A DNA stretch of 34,753 bases, taken from contig JAAFJS010000034.1 in assembly GCA_013298985.1 (NCBI GenBank), positions 1-34,753 on the forward strand, given 5' to 3'. The notes below the pieces were generated by a model that saw only the letters and a program-made list of their open reading frames with translations, made no database searches and was not told the DNA's origin. Shown piece by piece: positions 1,600 to 9,537 of this stretch (the first letter of the stretch is position 1; every line of letters starts with the position of its first letter). Source of the stretch: Cytophagales bacterium (GTDB taxonomy: Bacteria; Bacteroidota; Bacteroidia; Cytophagales; Thermoflexibacteraceae). A program made the position numbers and the translations under genes.

Positions 1600-2799
1600 A
1601 TGAATCAAATAAAAAAACTACCCGTTACGGTGCTTTCTGGCTTTTTGGGCGCAGGCAAAACGACCTTGCTCAACCATATTTTGCACAATAAAGAAGGGCT
1701 GAAAGTGGCTGTGATTGTGAATGATATGAGTGAGGTCAATGTAGATGCCGCACTGGTAAAACAGCAAAATACACTGAGCCGTACCGAAGAAAAGTTGGTA
1801 GAGATGAGCAATGGTTGCATCTGCTGCACTTTGCGCGAAGATTTGATGCTCGAAGTGGAACGCCTCGCCAAGGAAAACCGCTTCGATTACCTGCTCATAG
1901 AGAGTACGGGCATTAGCGAGCCTATTCCTGTGGCACAGACTTTTACCTTCAAAGATGAAAAAAGTAACATTGATTTGAGTCGTTTTGCTACCTTAGATAC
2001 AATGGTTACAGTGGTAGATGCCTTCAACTTTTGGAAGGACTTTGGCTCAATGGAAACCATTTTTGACCGCAAACTCAATGATGATGCCCAAGACCAAAGA
2101 ACAATCGTAAATCTACTTACTGACCAAGTAGAATTTGCCAATGTAATTGTCCTTAATAAAACAGACTTAATTGATAATGAGAATCTTAATCTACTCAAGA
2201 ATGCCATTCATAGACTTAACCCCGAAGCAAAAATTATCAATAGTGAGTTTAGCAAGGTCAATCCAAAAGAAATTTTGAATACTCGTTCTTTTGACTTTGA
2301 AAGAGCCTCACAGTCAGCAGGTTGGATTAAAGAATTAGAAAATGAACACACACCCGAAACCGAAGAATATGGTATTGGCTCTTTTGTATTCCGCAGTAAA
2401 AAGCCTTTTCACCCCGAACGCTTCTGGCACTATTTGGCAAACGACTTTTCTGCAAGTATTATTCGCAGTAAAGGACTTTTCTGGCTTGCTTCGCGTCCTA
2501 ATGAGGCAATCAATTGGTCGCAGGCAGGTGGCTCGCTAAGGGCGGACAAGGCGGGTGTTTGGTGGGCAAGTATGCCTTTTAAGGAACGTATGATGTACGC
2601 CGCCTTCATTGAAAATCAGAAGTTTATAGAATCTCGCTGGGATAAGCGTTTTGGTGATAGACTAAATGAGTTGGTATTTATTGGGCAAGAGTTGGATAAA
2701 AAATACATTATCAGTGAGTTAGAAAATTGCCTTTGTACGGAAAATGAAATAGTGGCTATGGAAAATAAAAAGAAGTTTAAAGACCCATTTCCGATATGA
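1600..2799 (+). CDS. CobW/ZNG1 (ZigA-like) family GTPase, putative zinc metallochaperone
   Basis: The protein has 399 residues in two domains. The G3E GTPase domain (1 to about 215) has the P-loop GFLGAGKT (14-21), the metal-binding CxCC motif CICC (73-76) that defines this family, the ESTGISEP segment (101-108) and the guanine-specificity motif NKTDL (186-190). The CobW C-terminal domain (about 255-375) begins [20 protein letters not shown] and contains the family's G-x-x-W-L-A-S-R-P segment. The linker lacks the long His-rich stretch found in some members. Relatives hand zinc to client enzymes when zinc is scarce; the cobalamin or nitrile-hydratase branches are less likely because no such genes are nearby. 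It has its own promoter with a 7-1-7 operator 95-115 nt upstream, and a near-identical operator follows just after its stop. A purine-rich AAGAAG precedes the ATG. Confidence 0.9.
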
Positions 2800-2870: not shown

Positions 2871-4280
2871 ATGATACTACACATTGCCAAAAAAGAATTT
2901 ACTGAAATGTTACGGGAGAGTAGATTTCAGATAGTTGCTTTTATTATTGCTATTCTGATGATAGTCAGCATATTGATAAGTAAAAATTATTATGAGAAAA
3001 TTCGTAGCGAACACGAGCTTGCCATGCAGACATCGAGGCAGCAGTGGGAAAATCAAGGAGAAAAAAATCCACATTCAGCAGCACATTATGGTACGTATGC
3101 TTTCAAGCCTATACAGTCTTTGTCCTTGATTGACAATGGTTTAGACAAGTATTTGGGAGTTTCTATTTTTTTGGAGGGACACAGGCAAAATGACGCACAA
3201 TACAAACTAATTGCAGACCAAAATAGCTTTGCGCGCTTTGGGGAGATGACTCCATCTTTTATTATGACTTACCTCTTGCCTTTGCTCATTATTTTGATTT
3301 CATTTTCTTCATTATCAGGCGAAAAGGAAAAGGGAACATTAAAGTTACTACTCAGTCAGGGCGTTTCCAAAACTTCGGTCATCTTGGGCAAAATTGTGGG
3401 TGTTTGGCTAAGTGTAGGTTTATTACTTTTACCACTTTTTTTGGTGGGTTTAGGCGTTATCTTTACGACCAATTATCAAGCAGAAGATTTGAGTAGATAT
3501 GCGCTTATTTTCTTGACTTATTTGCTCTATTTTGGTGTTTTTATAAATATTAGCGTACTTTTTTCTTCTTTTGCCAAAAGCTCGACGATTGCACTTGTGG
3601 GCTTGATTGGATGTTGGATAGTGAGTTGCTTACTTGTGCCAAAGCTCACTTCCAATCTCTCCAAATATCTACACCCAACGCCCAGCGCGATGGAATATCA
3701 AGCCTCTTTGAAGGAAAGTTTGGAAAAAGGACTTGACGGACACAATCCGTATAATGAGTTTGCAAAAGCGTTTCAAGACAGCGTTTTAAAAGCAAATCAG
3801 GTAGATAGCATACAAAAATTGCCCTTCAATTATTCGGGCTTGATTATGCAAGCGGGCGAAGAACACGAACGATTTGTGTATGATAAGCACGTACAACAGC
3901 TTAACAATATTTATTTGGCTCAACTCCAAACACACCAAGCAAGTGCTATTTTTTCGCCTACCGTACTTACCAAAATACTTACCATGCAGTTTGCCCGCAC
4001 AGATATGCAAACGCATTTTCACTTTGCTAAAAAAGCAGAAGATTACCGTATAGCACTGGTGCGCCAGCTCAACGGCAACCTACAAAACAATTCCAAATAT
4101 GGTGATTGGGACTATGCCGCCAAGCCCGATTTTTTCAAAAATACGGTCAAATTTGAGTATGTGCCTCCCTCTTTGGGCGAAACTATGCAAACGGCTATGA
4201 GCAGTCTTTTGTGCTTAACGCTTTGGTTTGCATTGAGTTTGGGAGTAGCGATTGGTATAACCACTAAATTAAAAGTATAA
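2871..4280 (+). CDS. ABC-2 type permease, DUF3526 family (first of pair)
   Basis: This is a 469-residue inner-membrane protein. One N-terminal membrane segment (about 20-38) is followed by an extracytoplasmic region with the DUF3526-type block NPHSAAHYGTYAFKP (66-80) and LEGHRQN (101-107). A cluster of membrane segments (about 130-256) encloses the cytoplasmic motif SGEKEKGTLKLLLSQG (149-164), the usual coupling region of ABC-2 permeases. A second large outside loop (about 260-435) and a last membrane helix (about 440-465) complete it. It is the first gene of a compact cluster (4-nt gap to the next permease, then the ATPase). The permeases probably form a heterodimer driven by the ATPase. Substrate and direction are unknown; the operator upstream suggests use under metal limitation. 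Confidence 0.85.
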   Translation: MILHIAKKEFTEMLRESRFQIVAFIIAILMIVSILISKNYYEKIRSEHELAMQTSRQQWENQGEKNPHSAAHYGTYAFKPIQSLSLIDNGLDKYLGVSIFLEGHRQNDAQYKLIADQNSFARFGEMTPSFIMTYLLPLLIILISFSSLSGEKEKGTLKLLLSQGVSKTSVILGKIVGVWLSVGLLLLPLFLVGLGVIFTTNYQAEDLSRYALIFLTYLLYFGVFINISVLFSSFAKSSTIALVGLIGCWIVSCLLVPKLTSNLSKYLHPTPSAMEYQASLKESLEKGLDGHNPYNEFAKAFQDSVLKANQVDSIQKLPFNYSGLIMQAGEEHERFVYDKHVQQLNNIYLAQLQTHQASAIFSPTVLTKILTMQFARTDMQTHFHFAKKAEDYRIALVRQLNGNLQNNSKYGDWDYAAKPDFFKNTVKFEYVPPSLGETMQTAMSSLLCLTLWFALSLGVAIGITTKLKV

Positions 4281-4284
4281 ATCT

Positions 4285-5712
4285 ATGTTTCACATTTTAC
4301 GTTTTGAGTTCAAACAACTTTTGACTAATCGCTTGCTCTGGTGGGTAAGTGCGACATTGACAGTAAGTATCTTTTTTGCGGTCTATAATGGGAAGACGGA
4401 AATGACCTCCAAGCAGACCATTATCAAGGAATTAGGTGAGGAAGAGGCAAAGCGGTACAACAAATTCAAATTGGATTTTGATAGCTTGAACGCAGGCACC
4501 AAAAAGGCAAAATTGGCATGGCATCAAGACCCCAGAACGGCACTGACAATAGGAATGTTTCGCAATTCGGGAAAATATGCGATTTTAGAGCCTGCACCGC
4601 TATCTTTCATCTCTACAGGGCAAAGCGATATTGAGATTTTTTATAGCAAAGTGAGCTATTTGAGTGATATTTTGCAAACAAATAATATCAATTTCGAGAA
4701 TCCTTTTAACATTGCCACTGGGCAGTTTGACTTGGCATTTGTATTGGTTTTTCTTTTCCCTTTATTGGTTATAGCCCTGACCTACAATATTTTATCCTCA
4801 GAAAGAGAGCAAGGAACTTTGCCTTTGTTGCTGTCCCAACCTGTGCAAATCAAGCATTGGTTGGTGGCAAAACTAACTTTTCGCTTTGGCTTTTTGCTAT
4901 TGACAGTTTTTACTTTGCTTCTACTTTCCTTTGCTATTTTTAGCGTTGATTTTATAGTTCTTGGCTTTTTTCATTTGATATTAGCCATTACGCTTTATAC
5001 ACTTTTTTGGTTTACTTTATCTTTCTTTATCAACCTCTTAGCTAAAAGTTCGGCAGTAAATACATTGCTACTCTTGGCTACTTGGCTACTTTTTGTTTTC
5101 ATCATTCCAAGTTTGGCAAATATGATGGCAACTAATCTTTATCCTGTGCCTTCGCGGGCGGAACTGGTTAATGCCAAGCGGCAGGCAGAGCAAGAAACAG
5201 AGCGCAACAAGCAGGCAGTTTTGACGAAATTTTATCAGGCACACCCACAGTTAGTGCAGAAAGCTGAAAAAGAACAATCAAACGAAGATTTTTACAGAGA
5301 ATACGTTACGCTACACGAAGTCATAGACGAGCAAGTGGCGAAAGTACAGCAAGTATTTGATTATCAGCTTGAAGGGCAGCAGGTATTTGCCAATCAGTTC
5401 CAATATTTTTCCCCTGCGGTACTCATGCAAAATGCCTTCAATGAAATAGCCGAAACAGACAGCAAATTTTATAAAATCTTTCAAAAAAACATCATGGCTT
5501 ATCAGCAAAACTGGAAGGCTTTTTTCAAACCAAAATTCATCAATGATGAAAAAATGACGATAGAAACTTTTGCACAAATTCCTGTTTATGCGCCTACTAC
5601 AAAGGCAGAAAGTAGTTTTTCTAAGCAGTTTATTGGATTGGCTTTGTTTAGTCTTGTCTTTGGGTTACTGGCTTGGGCGCGGCAGACAAAGTATCAAAAT
5701 ATGGTTGCTTAA
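4285..5712 (+). CDS. ABC-2 type permease, DUF3526 family (second of pair)
   Basis: The 475-residue protein has the same layout as its upstream neighbour but is clearly diverged: an N-terminal membrane helix (about 18-34), an outside loop, membrane segments from about 150, the cytoplasmic motif SSEREQGTLPLLLSQP (171-186), a second loop rich in charged residues (about 285-445, partly helical) and a final helix near 450-467. It lacks the HSAAHYGTYAF block of the first permease, so the pair is asymmetric. Two such proteins plus one ATPase is the expected make-up of a full ABC-2 transporter. The gene starts 4 nt after the previous stop and is followed by a 56-nt gap to the ATPase. Confidence 0.84.
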   Translation: MFHILRFEFKQLLTNRLLWWVSATLTVSIFFAVYNGKTEMTSKQTIIKELGEEEAKRYNKFKLDFDSLNAGTKKAKLAWHQDPRTALTIGMFRNSGKYAILEPAPLSFISTGQSDIEIFYSKVSYLSDILQTNNINFENPFNIATGQFDLAFVLVFLFPLLVIALTYNILSSEREQGTLPLLLSQPVQIKHWLVAKLTFRFGFLLLTVFTLLLLSFAIFSVDFIVLGFFHLILAITLYTLFWFTLSFFINLLAKSSAVNTLLLLATWLLFVFIIPSLANMMATNLYPVPSRAELVNAKRQAEQETERNKQAVLTKFYQAHPQLVQKAEKEQSNEDFYREYVTLHEVIDEQVAKVQQVFDYQLEGQQVFANQFQYFSPAVLMQNAFNEIAETDSKFYKIFQKNIMAYQQNWKAFFKPKFINDEKMTIETFAQIPVYAPTTKAESSFSKQFIGLALFSLVFGLLAWARQTKYQNMVA

Positions 5713-5768
5713 TTTCTTCAGAAGAGAAGCAAAAAGACCTTTTTTTAACCTCAAAAAAAATTAAAAAT

Positions 5769-6470
5769 ATGCTTAACGCAACACAACTCACCAAAGAATA
5801 TGGAAATTTTTTAGCACTTAACTCACTCAATATCAGCGTAAATATAGGAGATATTTACTGTCTTTTGGGTGCAAATGGTGCAGGAAAATCTACCACTATC
5901 AACTTGTTTTTGGGATTTATTCAGCCTACAAATGGCAAAGTAGAAATCAATGGACTTGACGTAAGCCAAAAAGCTACAGAGAGCAAACAATATATCGCCT
6001 ATATTCCTGAAAATCTGATGCTGTACCCGAACCTGACAGGCTTGGAAAACTTAGCATATTTTGCAGGTTTGGCAAAAAAAAGATATACTAAAACACAACT
6101 TATTGGTTTGCTCAATGAAGCAGGTTTACAAGCAGATTTTCACGAAAAGCGAGTTTCTGCTTATTCCAAAGGCATGAGGCAGAAGGTAGGCATTGCGCTT
6201 GCCCTCGCCAAAGATGCAAAAGCACTTCTCTTGGACGAGCCTACTTCGGGGCTTGACCCACAAGCAAGCAATGAATTTTCTAATTTATTGCTCAAACTCA
6301 AAAGCAAGGGAGTGGCAACCCTGATGGCTACTCACGACCTTTTCAGGGCAAAACAAGTCGGTACACACATTGGCATTATGAAACAAGGCGTGCTGGTCAA
6401 ATCTTTCAAAGCGGAAGAAGTGAGCTTGGCTGACTTAGAAAAAATATATTTGGAAACGATAAACGCATAA
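5769..6470 (+). CDS. ABC transporter ATP-binding protein of the DUF3526 permease pair
   Basis: The start is placed at ATG 5769 (233 residues), because homology to the ABC fold begins at once there (MLNATQLTKEYGNFLALNSL); the open frame upstream to 5673 lies inside or just after the permease gene and is not needed. Motifs: Walker A GANGAGKST (34-42); a Q-loop region reading YIPEN (78-82), with Glu where Gln is commoner, as in many NosF/CcmA-like proteins; signature YSKGMRQ (132-138); Walker B LLLDEPTSGLD (153-163); and H-loop His 189. It powers the two permeases encoded just before it and acts on the cytoplasmic face of the inner membrane. The next gene starts 10 nt after the stop, consistent with one transcript. 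Confidence 0.9.
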   Translation: MLNATQLTKEYGNFLALNSLNISVNIGDIYCLLGANGAGKSTTINLFLGFIQPTNGKVEINGLDVSQKATESKQYIAYIPENLMLYPNLTGLENLAYFAGLAKKRYTKTQLIGLLNEAGLQADFHEKRVSAYSKGMRQKVGIALALAKDAKALLLDEPTSGLDPQASNEFSNLLLKLKSKGVATLMATHDLFRAKQVGTHIGIMKQGVLVKSFKAEEVSLADLEKIYLETINA

Positions 6471-6480
6471 AAGTTTGAAA

Positions 6481-8679
6481 ATGAGTAAATTTTATATATT
6501 GCTACTGTTATTTATTTCTGGTAGATTACTTGCCCAAACTGCTCCCCAAACTTTCTTACCGCCAGAAAAGCCCTTTATTTTTGAAGCGGCAGAAACTGCG
6601 GAAAAAATGCAAATAGATGGAAAACTTAACGAATCTGCTTGGGCTAATGCACAGATTATCAAAGGGTTTAAACAGCAAAACCCTACGCAAGGTGCAGACG
6701 CAAGCGGAGATACAGAAGTGCGAGTGCTTTTTGATAGTAAATTCCTGTATATCAGTGCTATATGTAAAGATGATTTGAAGAACAGAAACAATGTAAGGGT
6801 ACAAAACGTAAGGCGCGATTTTGAGTGGGACTTCAATGACAACTTTGGCGTAGTCATAGATGGCTTTAAGGATAAGCGCAATGCCGTAAGTTTTCAAACT
6901 ACGCCCAAGGGTAATCTCAGAGATTTACAAATTATTGATGGTGAAACCTTTAATAGAGATTGGGACGCGCTTTGGTATTGCCGCACCTCGATTACCGATA
7001 CGGCTTGGATAGCAGAAATGGCAATTCCTTGGAAAATTTTGCGCTACCCCGAAGGAGCTACTGACCTTGGCATTGTTTTTTTGAGGAATATTCGTAGGAA
7101 CAATGAATACACTGTAAATCCGTCTATTCCAAGAGTTTTCACCCCTTACCGCATGGCTTATGAGGCAATTTTGACGGGGATTAAGCCCCCAAAACCTTCG
7201 GCAAATATTTTGGTGAATCCTTACCTACTTTTGGAAAATAACCGCAGAAAAACAGCAAGCGAAACCACCAATGATTTCAAACCCAAGTTAGGTGGAGAAG
7301 TGAAGTGGGCAATTACGCCCAATACGGTGCTTGATATTACGGCAAATACAGATTTTGCACAGGCAGACGTAGATAGACAAGTAGTTAATTTACAACGCTT
7401 TTCGGTACTTTTTCCTGAGCGCAGGCAATTTTTTTTAGAGAATGCCAATATTTTTAGGGCAAATGTTACCAATTTCATTTTACCTTTTTTTAGCCGCAGA
7501 ATTGGCTTAGACGATTCGGGCAATCCTATTCCACTTGATGGCGGTTTTCGCCTTACCAGCCAAACTTCTAAGCGAAGCGTGGGCGCAATTGCAATGCGAC
7601 AAAGGGCAACAGACAACTCTCCTGTTTCACATTTTGGCGTATTTCGTTACTCAAAAAATTTGGGTTCGCAAAGCAGATTAGGCGGTATGCTTACTTACAG
7701 AAATGATGCAAAGTTTGAGCGCAACGGGCAAAGTATTGCAGAAAACAACAATTACACCGCAACGGTAGATGGCATCTATCGCCCTTCACAAAAATTCAAT
7801 GTGCAAGCCATGCTCTCTGGCTCAAAGGATTCACGCACAGGCGATGGCTTTGCTTCACAAGTTTGGACAAGCTACAACAGCAACCTCATGTACGTAGGCT
7901 GGCTGGGCTATTACGTAAAAAACTACAACCCAGGCATTGGTTTAGAACGCTTTGGGAGAGATTATTTTTACAACAGCCCCGCGATAGATTTTGACCTTCG
8001 CCCTAAGTGGTTGCCCAAGAAAATCAGGCGTTTCTTACCTGCTATTTATGCGGGTATTTTCCATACCGCTGACCTTCGGGATATTATTTCGGCAGAGGCA
8101 GCCCTCAAACCCTTCCACATAGAATTTCAGAATGGCGCAAGCATACAATATGATATGATTCAGAATTGGCAAAAGTTAGATTTTACGGAAAGACTTGTGG
8201 GCGTGGAAGTTGCAGAAGGATATTACCAATACCTCAATCATAGAATCCAAGCAAGTACGGACTTTTCAGCAAAATTGGCAGGAAGGGCAAGCTACGTAAA
8301 CGGTGGTTATTTTAATGGAAAATTGCAGACTTGGACGCTGGCAGGGCGTTTCGCACCTATCCCAAACATAGAATTTACCGTAGATTATGAGTTCAACCAA
8401 ATCAGGGGTTTGGGCGCGGAACAACGAGATTTGGACACACACTTGTTAGGAATTAATACTCGCTTGGCACTAAATCCAAGAGTGCAACTGATTGGGTTTT
8501 ATCAGTGGAATAGCTCTCTCAAAAGGGACATTTGGAATGTGCGCCTTTCTTGGGAGTACCGCCCGCTTTCATTCCTATATGTAGTATTTAATAGCAACAG
8601 AACCAATGGTTTAAACCCGCAAGACCGTATCACACAACAGCAGGGAATTGCCAAACTGACGTATTTGAGGTTGTTTTAA
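6481..8679 (+). CDS. DUF5916 outer-membrane protein with N-terminal CBM9-like domain
   Basis: The ATG at 6481 gives 732 residues; an in-frame TTG at 6475 is less likely. A signal peptide (MSKFYILLLLFISGRLLAQ) is followed by a CBM9/DOMON-like beta-sandwich (about 35-225), recognisable from IDGKLNESAWANAQ and later DALWYCRTSITDTAWIAEMA. The rest (about 230-732) is the DUF5916 domain, rich in alternating polar/aromatic strands (FSVLFPERRQFFLENANIF, FFSRRIGL) and ending in Phe, as expected for an outer-membrane beta-barrel. The exact role of this family is unknown. Here it is the last gene of the operator-controlled ABC cluster, so it may be the outer-membrane step for whatever the ABC-2 transporter moves (inference). 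No TonB-dependent receptor is present alongside. Confidence 0.82.
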   Translation: MSKFYILLLLFISGRLLAQTAPQTFLPPEKPFIFEAAETAEKMQIDGKLNESAWANAQIIKGFKQQNPTQGADASGDTEVRVLFDSKFLYISAICKDDLKNRNNVRVQNVRRDFEWDFNDNFGVVIDGFKDKRNAVSFQTTPKGNLRDLQIIDGETFNRDWDALWYCRTSITDTAWIAEMAIPWKILRYPEGATDLGIVFLRNIRRNNEYTVNPSIPRVFTPYRMAYEAILTGIKPPKPSANILVNPYLLLENNRRKTASETTNDFKPKLGGEVKWAITPNTVLDITANTDFAQADVDRQVVNLQRFSVLFPERRQFFLENANIFRANVTNFILPFFSRRIGLDDSGNPIPLDGGFRLTSQTSKRSVGAIAMRQRATDNSPVSHFGVFRYSKNLGSQSRLGGMLTYRNDAKFERNGQSIAENNNYTATVDGIYRPSQKFNVQAMLSGSKDSRTGDGFASQVWTSYNSNLMYVGWLGYYVKNYNPGIGLERFGRDYFYNSPAIDFDLRPKWLPKKIRRFLPAIYAGIFHTADLRDIISAEAALKPFHIEFQNGASIQYDMIQNWQKLDFTERLVGVEVAEGYYQYLNHRIQASTDFSAKLAGRASYVNGGYFNGKLQTWTLAGRFAPIPNIEFTVDYEFNQIRGLGAEQRDLDTHLLGINTRLALNPRVQLIGFYQWNSSLKRDIWNVRLSWEYRPLSFLYVVFNSNRTNGLNPQDRITQQQGIAKLTYLRLF

Positions 8680-8733: not shown

Positions 8734-9537
8734 TTAAACAATATACAAATCCTGCTCGTCTTTGAGTAGTACCCCCGAAAGTTGTCTGCTGTGGATAGTC
8801 TCCAGCAGATAAATCAGTTTTTGCGTAGCTTGCTCATAATCAAGCCCTTCGGGGCGCACATTGGAAATGCAGTTCCGTTTTTCGTCCGTAGCCCCAATAT
8901 GGGGCTGGAAAGTAATGTAAAGTCCCAAACTATCCGCCGCACTCAGTCCAGGGCGTTCGCCAATTAGCATGGCTGCAATGGTTGCCCCAAGCAAAACGGC
9001 AACCTCGTCCGCAGAAGCTACGCGACCCTGCTCTACCAAACAAATAGGAGCTATCTGCCAGTTTTTTTCTTGTAGATACGGCACAACCTGATGGAGCAAA
9101 GGCGCGGCATGAGCATTGACCGCCGTTGCCGAAAGCCCATCTGCAATGACAAAAACGATACGTTCGCCGCCGTTGTCGCCGTTGTCTGTGTCCTCACAGA
9201 CAGCTTGTTTCTTGCCGTTGTCTGTGTCCTCACAGACAACTTGCCTTAATTTTTCCACTGATTTTTCAGCTAACCTTCTTCCAAGGTGAGGGTTTTTGAG
9301 GTAATCGAGGCGGTCTATTGCCTGCGAATGAAGTTTGAGGCAGGGAAGGCTTAAATTTAGGTCATGTTCTATTTTTTCTGTATCCAAATTTGCATAAACA
9401 GCATCGCGAGCCTTGGCGTGTTCCAAGCGAAAATTGAGTAAAAAATGTGTGGGCAACGAAGTCCCTGCGCGACCTATCGCGATACGCGCCCGCGTAAACC
9501 GAAGGAGAGATTGCCAATGGTCAGTTTGGAAAGACAT
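8734..9537 (-). CDS. eutC: ethanolamine ammonia-lyase small (beta) subunit EutC, with in-frame repeat insertion
   Basis: This is the small subunit of the B12-dependent lyase that turns ethanolamine into acetaldehyde and ammonia; it works only with EutB. Its 267 residues carry the family landmarks: FTRARIAIGRAGTSLPT (14-30), IADGLSATAVNAHA (131-144), IGERPGLSAADSLGLYIT (192-209) and RNCISNVRPEGL (221-232). Between the N-terminal part and the ADGLS core lies a repeat (VCEDTDNGKKQ then AVCEDTDNGDNG, about 101-122) that I do not recognise as part of EutC. It is encoded by two 36-bp hairpin copies, so it looks like an in-frame insertion. The start ATG lies 1 nt after the stop of the lipoprotein gene, implying coupled translation. 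No eutB or other eut gene is in the window. It converges with the DUF5916 gene (54-nt gap). Confidence 0.9.
   Translation of the reverse strand: MSFQTDHWQSLLRFTRARIAIGRAGTSLPTHFLLNFRLEHAKARDAVYANLDTEKIEHDLNLSLPCLKLHSQAIDRLDYLKNPHLGRRLAEKSVEKLRQVVCEDTDNGKKQAVCEDTDNGDNGGERIVFVIADGLSATAVNAHAAPLLHQVVPYLQEKNWQIAPICLVEQGRVASADEVAVLLGATIAAMLIGERPGLSAADSLGLYITFQPHIGATDEKRNCISNVRPEGLDYEQATQKLIYLLETIHSRQLSGVLLKDEQDLYIV
9178..9249. repeat. two 36-bp tandem copies, each a hairpin, inside eutC
   Basis: Two head-to-tail units at 9178-9213 and 9214-9249 share their first 24 bases with one change. Each contains arms GTTGTCTGTG and CACAGACA(A/G)C around a TCCT loop. The second copy is a perfect 10-bp inverted repeat (9217-9226 with 9231-9240); the first has one G-T mismatch. 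The period is 12 codons, so the reading frame of eutC is kept. This looks like a dispersed REP-type palindrome that entered the gene and doubled. Confidence 0.8.

Follow-up and report, generated by a model that had tools for sequence, protein, structure and literature searches.

Two DUF3526 permeases, one ATP-binding cassette (ABC) ATPase and a DUF5916 outer-membrane protein stand side by side at positions 2871-8679 of the stretch analysed here (contig JAAFJS010000034.1 of a Cytophagales bacterium, assembly GCA_013298985.1, positions 1 to 34,753; hereafter the window, 34,753 nucleotides (nt) in full length), and the question raised by this locus is what such a combination does for the cell. 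Our results suggest that the cluster is very probably a zinc-starvation system, and we give an even chance to a more definite reading, namely a ZnuGHI-type system for acquiring zinc, which Zur represses at sufficient zinc and to which a dedicated outer-membrane barrel has been added. Zinc is well supported, while the mechanism is one that we infer. The elements of the proposed unit are:

1491-1505, operator 1, TGCAACAGTGTTGCA, 94 nt before the ZigA-like gene
1600-2799, plus strand, ZigA-like zinc metallochaperone GTPase of the COG0523 family (NF038288 ZigA; Pfam cobW and CobW_C)
2807-2821, operator 2, TGCAACTATGTTGCA, 49 nt before the gene of permease A
2871-4280, plus strand, ABC-2 permease A (Pfam ABC2_membrane_2 and DUF3526)
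4285-5712, plus strand, ABC-2 permease B (Pfam ABC2_membrane_2 and DUF3526)
5769-6470, plus strand, ABC ATPase, ABCA/NosF-like (Pfam ABC_tran)
6481-8679, plus strand, DUF5916 outer-membrane protein (Pfam DUF5916 and CBM9_1)

A preliminary description of this DNA had named the same four genes, packed with gaps of 4, 56 and 10 nt, and both coordinates and domains were right: A and B score 89.5 and 89.4 bits with DUF3526 (cut-off 25) and share 31% identity over 283 residues, and the last protein reaches 55.2 bits with DUF5916 (PF19313; cut-off 22.6), which places it in the family. The window thus holds a three-gene core of an ABC-2 ATPase adjacent to two ABC-2 permeases, with the ATPase starting at the ATG at 5769 (a longer, TTG-started frame runs from 5673). 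The genes had further been placed behind one operator; the operator stands, its single copy does not. Given that one copy precedes the ZigA-like gene and the other lies between this gene and A, we count the ZigA-like gene into the unit. Its product scores 578.6 bits over the whole NF038288 profile, under the cut-off of 600, hence the name ZigA-like rather than ZigA.

Perfect copies of the operator, TGCAACNNNGTTGCA, occur four times in the 6.06 Mb assembly (383 contigs), two of them in the window; with one mismatch permitted, there are 11 places for TGCAACNNNGTTGCA versus 3 for a backwards control. Among 80 related loci (1.08 Mb, selected independently of the operator) we found 21 perfect sites spread over 17 loci, 20 of which lie no more than 500 nt upstream of, or up to about 60 nt past, the predicted start of a cluster gene. 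When all 180 half-site orderings, including the real one, were counted in these loci, the operator ranked first with its 21 sites, the next best ordering had 2 and the mean was 0.16, so that the remaining 179 orderings account for 8 sites altogether. Seven further genomes of the class, found with the DUF3526 hidden Markov model (HMM), carry the perfect box at five loci, the two without it (L164 and L167) belonging to one genus. Perfect operators also stand upstream of plasmid loci of Aureibacter and Spirosoma, and a genome of the same order (G227) has two of them separated by 39 nt, of which the nearer lies about 690 nt ahead of its ATPase gene. The -7 box of Bacteroidota has the consensus TAnnTTTG, and operator 1 overlaps TATATTTG (1485-1492), which we take to resemble this box. 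We conclude that the operator is real and putatively of the Zur type, and that the cluster is probably controlled by Zur.

Three proteins of the genome match FUR; the one on contig C217 scores 154.6 bits with an HMM of Fur proteins linked to such clusters and the one on contig C142 scores 45.4. The best NCBIfam match of a cluster-linked Fur protein (L081) is Zur, and since its 33 bits are far under the cut-off, we infer, rather than read off, that Zur is the regulator. One of the remaining two perfect TGCAACNNNGTTGCA sites, on contig C64, precedes the genes of a TonB receptor and of a lipoprotein, as does a one-mismatch copy 40 nt beyond; the other is on contig C127, at a MerT-like gene. Thus, the argument that the cluster is not a classical uptake system because no TonB receptor is present was right within the window, where the HMM scan found none, and failed at the level of the genome: the C64 operators put a TonB receptor into the same putative regulon as the ABC genes, and receptors accompany 32 of the 80 related loci. 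For the C64 receptor, ‘ZnuD-like’ is a loose label, since its 109 bits against ZnuD (cut-off 950) are exceeded by the 130 that it reaches against the heme-receptor family TonB-hemin; for its lipoprotein, phmmer found no convincing solved relative. On contig C127 (L007), the MerT-like membrane protein (6084-6458; 22.9 bits, cut-off 32.9) has the operator at its gene start and adjoins a His-rich lipoprotein (5564-6055), for which no convincing solved relative was found either, the best match being a designed protein (E 0.007); the pair are unexplained candidates for zinc starvation.

The neighbourhood of the cluster in relatives argues for the same signal. Among the 80 related loci, ZigA was counted in 22, Fur in 12, MerC in 17, a lipoprotein of the C64 type in 13 and a small protein with two His and two Cys (H2C2) in 30. 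In 42 of the 80 there is at least one of ZigA, Fur, MerC and the perfect box, whereas 20 control loci, which span 278 kb around unrelated members of DUF5916 from this class, have none. In two loci (L068 and L084) a perfect operator is separated by 52 nt from a gene of the Fur family and by 16-20 nt from MerC, and in a relative of the same family an AztD-like lipoprotein (103 bits, cut-off 400; PDB 6cmk, 4.6e-18) is encoded ahead of the ATPase. Metal starvation had been proposed for this cluster before, and it finds strong support; the metal is most likely zinc, because the Zur-type operator, the ZigA, Fur, MerC and AztD-like neighbours and the precedent of Caulobacter znuGHI all point to it. 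That the operator answers another metal or signal, zinc being a mislabel, we consider highly improbable: it could be argued from the scores of receptor and Fur, well under the curated ZnuD and Zur cut-offs, whereas the near-cut-off ZigA score, the AztD-like chaperone, the Fur genes 52 nt from the box and znuGHI (PMC4176598) speak against it. As a separate observation, MerC and GTP cyclohydrolase I are faced by a Fur gene in four Flavobacteriaceae loci (L068:2321-3849, L082, L084 and L110), and the intervening operator is perfect in L068 and L084 and has one mismatch in L082 and L110.

The closest described counterpart is found in Caulobacter, where znuG, znuH and znuI (CC1518-CC1520) encode one ABC-2 ATPase and two ABC-2 permeases, rise 11.6- to 38-fold when zur is mutated, have a control region bound by Zur and were named a putative high-affinity uptake system; the growth phenotypes given in the parts of this paper considered here concern the receptors znuK and znuL, not znuGHI (PMC4176598). 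In the section considered, a review likewise counts znuGHI among the zinc uptake systems of the ABC type (PMC6103462). The two systems resemble each other in composition, in the TonB receptors of the regulon and, probably, in Zur-type control, and differ in the operator sequence; moreover, the unit in the window adds the DUF5916 barrel and the ZigA-like gene, and its receptor is encoded elsewhere in the genome. Tentatively, A and B are taken as relatives of ZnuH and ZnuI. At the level of whole genomes, DUF3526 (PF12040) matched in Caulobacter vibrioides alone of 14 controls, and ABC-3 matched in the other 13; hence, by elimination, Caulobacter has no ABC-3 match.

On these grounds A, B and the ATPase could be a true inner-membrane zinc importer with an ABC-2 fold and no classical binding protein, as proposed for ZnuGHI. 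The repression of znuGHI by Zur along with receptors (PMC4176598), the absence by elimination of ABC-3 from Caulobacter and the candidate ligands in the first extracytoplasmic loop of A favour an importer. However, the solved relatives with an ABC-2 fold, among the matches listed, are mostly exporters, lipid transporters or NosY, the genome of the window also has ABC-3 permeases and ZnuA, and there is no clear exclusion between ABC-3 and DUF3526. Thus, we regard plain import as unlikely. The idea that DUF3526 systems replace ZnuABC was dropped for want of such exclusion among 247 genomes of the class, in which an ABC-3 match (E <= 0.001) was found in 4 of the 8 genomes with DUF3526 (one of the four weak) versus 82 of 247 overall. 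Because the genome encodes one ZnuA and two ABC-3 permeases, the present system need not be its sole zinc route; a second route for zinc or manganese may be kept, and no match to a ZIP transporter was found in the genome. With ZnuABC itself the cluster shares the function of a zinc-starvation ABC system, whereas an ABC-3 permease and ZnuA are not in the operon of the window (no Pfam match among the operon proteins).

The fold of permease A suggests a different mode of action. The AlphaFold2 model of A, built from an alignment of 48 sequences (A of the window and 47 full-length A proteins from a list of 61), has a mean predicted local distance difference test (pLDDT) of 88.7. In Foldseek its best match is NosY (2.1e-5), the 11 best rows all being NosDFY or NosFY entries; VIA-align gives Z 25.6 with NosY at a root-mean-square deviation of 2.8 over 244 residues, followed by ABCA4 with Z 19.6 (structural matches to unrelated helical proteins under Z 8 were disregarded). 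Independently, the sequence profile of A points the same way, with NosY at E 3.7e-8 and PmtD next at 0.052. Permease A is therefore predicted to fold like NosY. Since it has 469 residues versus 276 in NosY, about 200 of them are additions, located in the loop between transmembrane helices 1 and 2 (TM1-TM2) and in the DUF3526 part ahead of the last helix; by ABC-2 topology, both are extracytoplasmic.

The TM1-TM2 loop carries the H-x-x-x-H block that had been called conserved and a possible metal contact. Conservation is borne out: in the window and 11 relatives found by similarity, H72, E102 and H104 are kept in 12 of 12 sequences and H68 in 11, and in the 7 genomes that the DUF3526 HMM added, all A permeases have both HxxxH and ExH, while none of the 7 B permeases has either motif; B of the window also lacks the His block. 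In the model, one short helix bears H68 and H72, and a predicted hairpin is the place of E102 and H104. Together, these four residues are a good candidate metal site.

NosDFY is a copper maturation complex that depends on its ABC activity for copper uptake and transfer, both being lost with an inactive NosF variant (PMC11573801; in the part of the paper considered here). The window shares its permease core, NosY being the best match of A by both fold and profile. It differs in having two unlike permease genes, whereas NosDFY has a single permease gene and two NosY copies, in the added extracytoplasmic parts of A and in a context of zinc, not copper. Tentatively, and at somewhat less than an even chance, we favour a NosFY-like hand-over of zinc rather than plain import or export.

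The second unusual component is the DUF5916 protein. By eye its N-terminus is signal-like, and it continues into a CBM9-fold domain (residues about 30-237) and a large beta-barrel (about 241-732); the model (pLDDT 83.6, residues 293-320 under 50) matches CBM9 folds with Z 19-21, and its barrel is nearest to the MtrB type (Mtr complex, Z 17.9) and to TonB receptors. An outer-membrane barrel with a sugar-binding-like head, as described earlier, is thus what the prediction yields. In 17 of the 71 related loci that extend at least 1 kb past B, a DUF5916 gene starts within -200 to +300 nt of the end of B (an earlier, looser count of 19 of 68 within 2.5 kb left out L054 and L065, and 17 of 71 is used here). 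Five DUF5916 genes are present in the 6 Mb of the genome itself. A tree of 55 rows unites the ABC-linked members and that of the window in one clade (support 100/99), which also holds the paralogue of this genome on contig C102 and L115 (with DUF5916 in opposite orientation); outside it are the 29 remaining background rows and a single linked one, L120, whose branch is very long. Not all linked cases are tight, since some are 0.8-2.2 kb off (L077, L099 and L120) or upstream of the ATPase (L091); 23 of the 30 frames from related loci were kept, seven fragments in L052, L055, L061, L085, L104 and L106 being left out, and the background was drawn from the 30 loci obtained for 36 matches and from this genome. 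Given that one DUF5916 subfamily was repeatedly joined to and parted from the ABC genes, we favour a functional link, although DUF5916 is evidently not indispensable at the locus. The barrel had been counted as part of the system, and adjacency and clade agree: it is likely a functional partner of the ABC system. An impression gained from four family relatives, that DUF5916 is not conserved, was overturned by the wider locus set and the tree. The C102 paralogue (L155:4744-6963) has no ABC genes or operator within the 8.3 kb viewed.

Two alternatives take the barrel and the permeases in other directions. Possibly, the ABC complex exports a zinc-binding compound (zincophore) for release by the DUF5916 barrel and recovery through the TonB receptor; ABC-2 exporters among the fold matches of A, the barrel itself and the receptors that accompany the system in relatives would suit this. 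However, among the listed unassigned neighbour families present in at least four loci, none has the look of metallophore biosynthesis by eye, so that the earlier suggestion of an exported metal-binding compound gained no support from recurring genes, and we hold it improbable. Alternatively, the complex might remodel or mature the envelope under zinc starvation (handling of lipoproteins, receptors or glycans), with the CBM9-fold domain binding sugar, as the CBM9 fold, the ABCA-like ATPase and the FtsX permease family of 6 of the 80 loci, one member of which (L061) is weakly LolCE-like, would allow. Nevertheless, the conserved His and acidic residues of A and the conserved His and Cys of recurring neighbours suggest handling of the metal itself, and envelope remodelling seems quite improbable.

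Returning to the ZnuGHI-type reading with NosFY-like hand-over, we propose that under zinc shortage Zur would leave both operators, and the ZigA-like chaperone, the complex of A, B and ATPase and the DUF5916 barrel would be made; elsewhere in the genome, the same signal would release the loosely ZnuD-like TonB receptor with its lipoprotein, and the MerT-like protein. The receptor would carry zinc over the outer membrane. The complex of A and B would act as a NosFY-like engine, in which ATP hydrolysis in the cytoplasm shifts the extracytoplasmic parts of both permeases, and H68, H72, E102 and H104 of A might take zinc from periplasmic carriers or load zinc onto them. The DUF5916 barrel would be the outer-membrane partner of this engine, its CBM9-fold domain presumably facing the periplasm. 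We advance, more tentatively still, that ABC complexes with DUF3526 use ATP to drive the hand-over of zinc, in the manner of NosFY, and are neither importers nor exporters; together with TonB receptor, lipoproteins and a DUF5916 barrel of their own, they would make up a zinc machine that spans the envelope and is used across Bacteroidota and beyond.

Several observations weigh against this reading. Regarding regulation, 63 of the 80 loci have no perfect operator (several of them are incomplete at their ends), and the C64 receptor scores higher with the heme-receptor family than with ZnuD (both far under cut-off). The genome also has its ZnuA and ABC-3 permease genes, located on other contigs with no operator of this kind nearby. 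Fewer than half of the loci have the barrel next to the ABC genes, its label on the permease tree (made by a quick method and with long branches) needs 17 changes, at least 12 of them by well-supported branches, and no invariant His or Cys was found in the DUF5916 proteins. The invariance of the A ligands in the 48-sequence alignment is biased, since the 80 loci were gathered with search patterns containing those His motifs, and is thus partly built in; moreover, E102 and H104 are placed where pLDDT is only about 65 (residues 101-110). Among solved structures the ATPase is nearer to ABCA4 (1.1e-52) than to NosF (4.6e-37), and ABCA lipid transporters also match the fold of A. NosDFY has NosD, whereas no NosD-like match was found among the operon proteins, and a common fold is no proof of a common mechanism.

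If DUF3526 complexes are hand-over engines, ‘ZnuGHI’ would need reclassifying, and if the NosFY-like mode holds, ATP-driven hand-over of metal on the outer face of the inner membrane would concern zinc as well as copper. DUF3526 and DUF5916, both of unknown function, would gain a regulon and a testable job, and a link to ZnuGHI, which is Zur-repressed by experiment and unexplained in mechanism. For this group of Bacteroidota, the results also suggest an operator of the Zur type. Among open-licence full-text papers (subscription papers being outside the scope), we found none naming DUF3526 or DUF5916 and none combining Zur, Bacteroidetes and COG0523. Zur regulon, Bacteroidetes, zinc and ABC transporter come together in two papers, PMC12193353 and a study on Riemerella (PMC11960050). 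The sections considered of the Riemerella study describe ZntR and mention Zur in general terms only, and those of PMC2770081 yielded no passage on Zur sites of Bacteroidota.

Gene order in other Bacteroidota and its co-occurrence with the operator had been suggested as a check, and the neighbourhood proved conserved, including runs that contain the barrel. In G227 (contig C2; L161:1945-10282) the two operators are followed by ATPase, A, B, DUF5916, a secreted CxxC protein and ZigA, which makes this locus well suited as a model; in Croceivirga (L064) a small protein, receptor, lipoprotein, ATPase, A, B and DUF5916 form one run, and Croceitalea dokdonensis (L083), a culturable marine flavobacterium, also has receptor, lipoprotein, ABC genes and DUF5916 together. 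The genome of the window splits this set, with receptor and lipoprotein encoded on C64 and the ABC genes plus DUF5916 in the window. Ten of 12 plasmid records were viewed. Receptor, ATPase, A and B are grouped on plasmids of two Hymenobacter, Comamonas and Eleftheria; in Aureibacter a DUF4374 gene lies in between, in Spirosoma the ATPase and in Blastomonas the receptor comes last, and the Methylocystis locus has no receptor. The Variovorax and Novosphingobium records are unannotated and were assessed by sequence comparison only. The operator was not found in the Hymenobacter plasmid loci L032 and L033 or in G005 (L031). In the proteobacterial plasmid loci (L035, L036 and L038-L041) we found neither a TGCAAC operator (up to one mismatch) nor a clean GTTAT-type box, and for this reason we do not claim a zinc role for them. 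In G011, a relative of the same genus (C40:44351-45757; L009, L028 and L042), the frame of permease A has one internal stop, on account of which its system may be decaying; DUF5916 was not found at this locus.

Small proteins that often precede receptor or ATPase are candidate periplasmic zinc carriers: in the protein at L091:3604-3912 and 30 similar ones, two His and CxxC are kept in 31 of 31, and the same holds for 9 of 9 members of the TM111 family. Five members of these His/CxxC proteins were scanned, none exceeding a Pfam cut-off, and the sole Pfam match among six small proteins scanned was that of a plasmid gene of L039 to DUF2946 (28.9 bits). For a family of secreted CxxC proteins, the provisional label ‘DUF3299like’ was dropped, as three scanned members had no Pfam DUF3299 match; neither one of its proteins nor one of the lipoproteins that we labelled ‘HisLipo’, which have conserved His columns in 7 members, gave a convincing match to a solved structure in phmmer.

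In the six loci with the FtsX permease family (L061:11298-13616, L048, L055, L067, L085 and L118), this forms a second cassette of ATPase, FtsX permease and secreted CxxC protein, often with MerC; the L061 permease is His-rich and reaches 51.9 bits with LolCE (cut-off 362). PA4063-PA4066 of Pseudomonas, as described in the parts of the paper considered, is a Zur-regulated ABC system without a recognisable classical binding protein and with a zinc-binding periplasmic protein (PMC10393844). By this description it is like the cluster in being a zinc-starvation ABC system that lacks a recognisable classical binding protein. We assume it to be closer to the separate FtsX cassette than to the DUF3526 system.

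Around the unit, the left contig end carries a fragment of an IS66 transposase (62-358). The gene that follows the barrel is:

8734-9537, minus strand (opposite to the cluster), EutC

It contains a short in-frame tandem duplication at about 9165-9245, by which VCEDTDNG appears twice in the translation.

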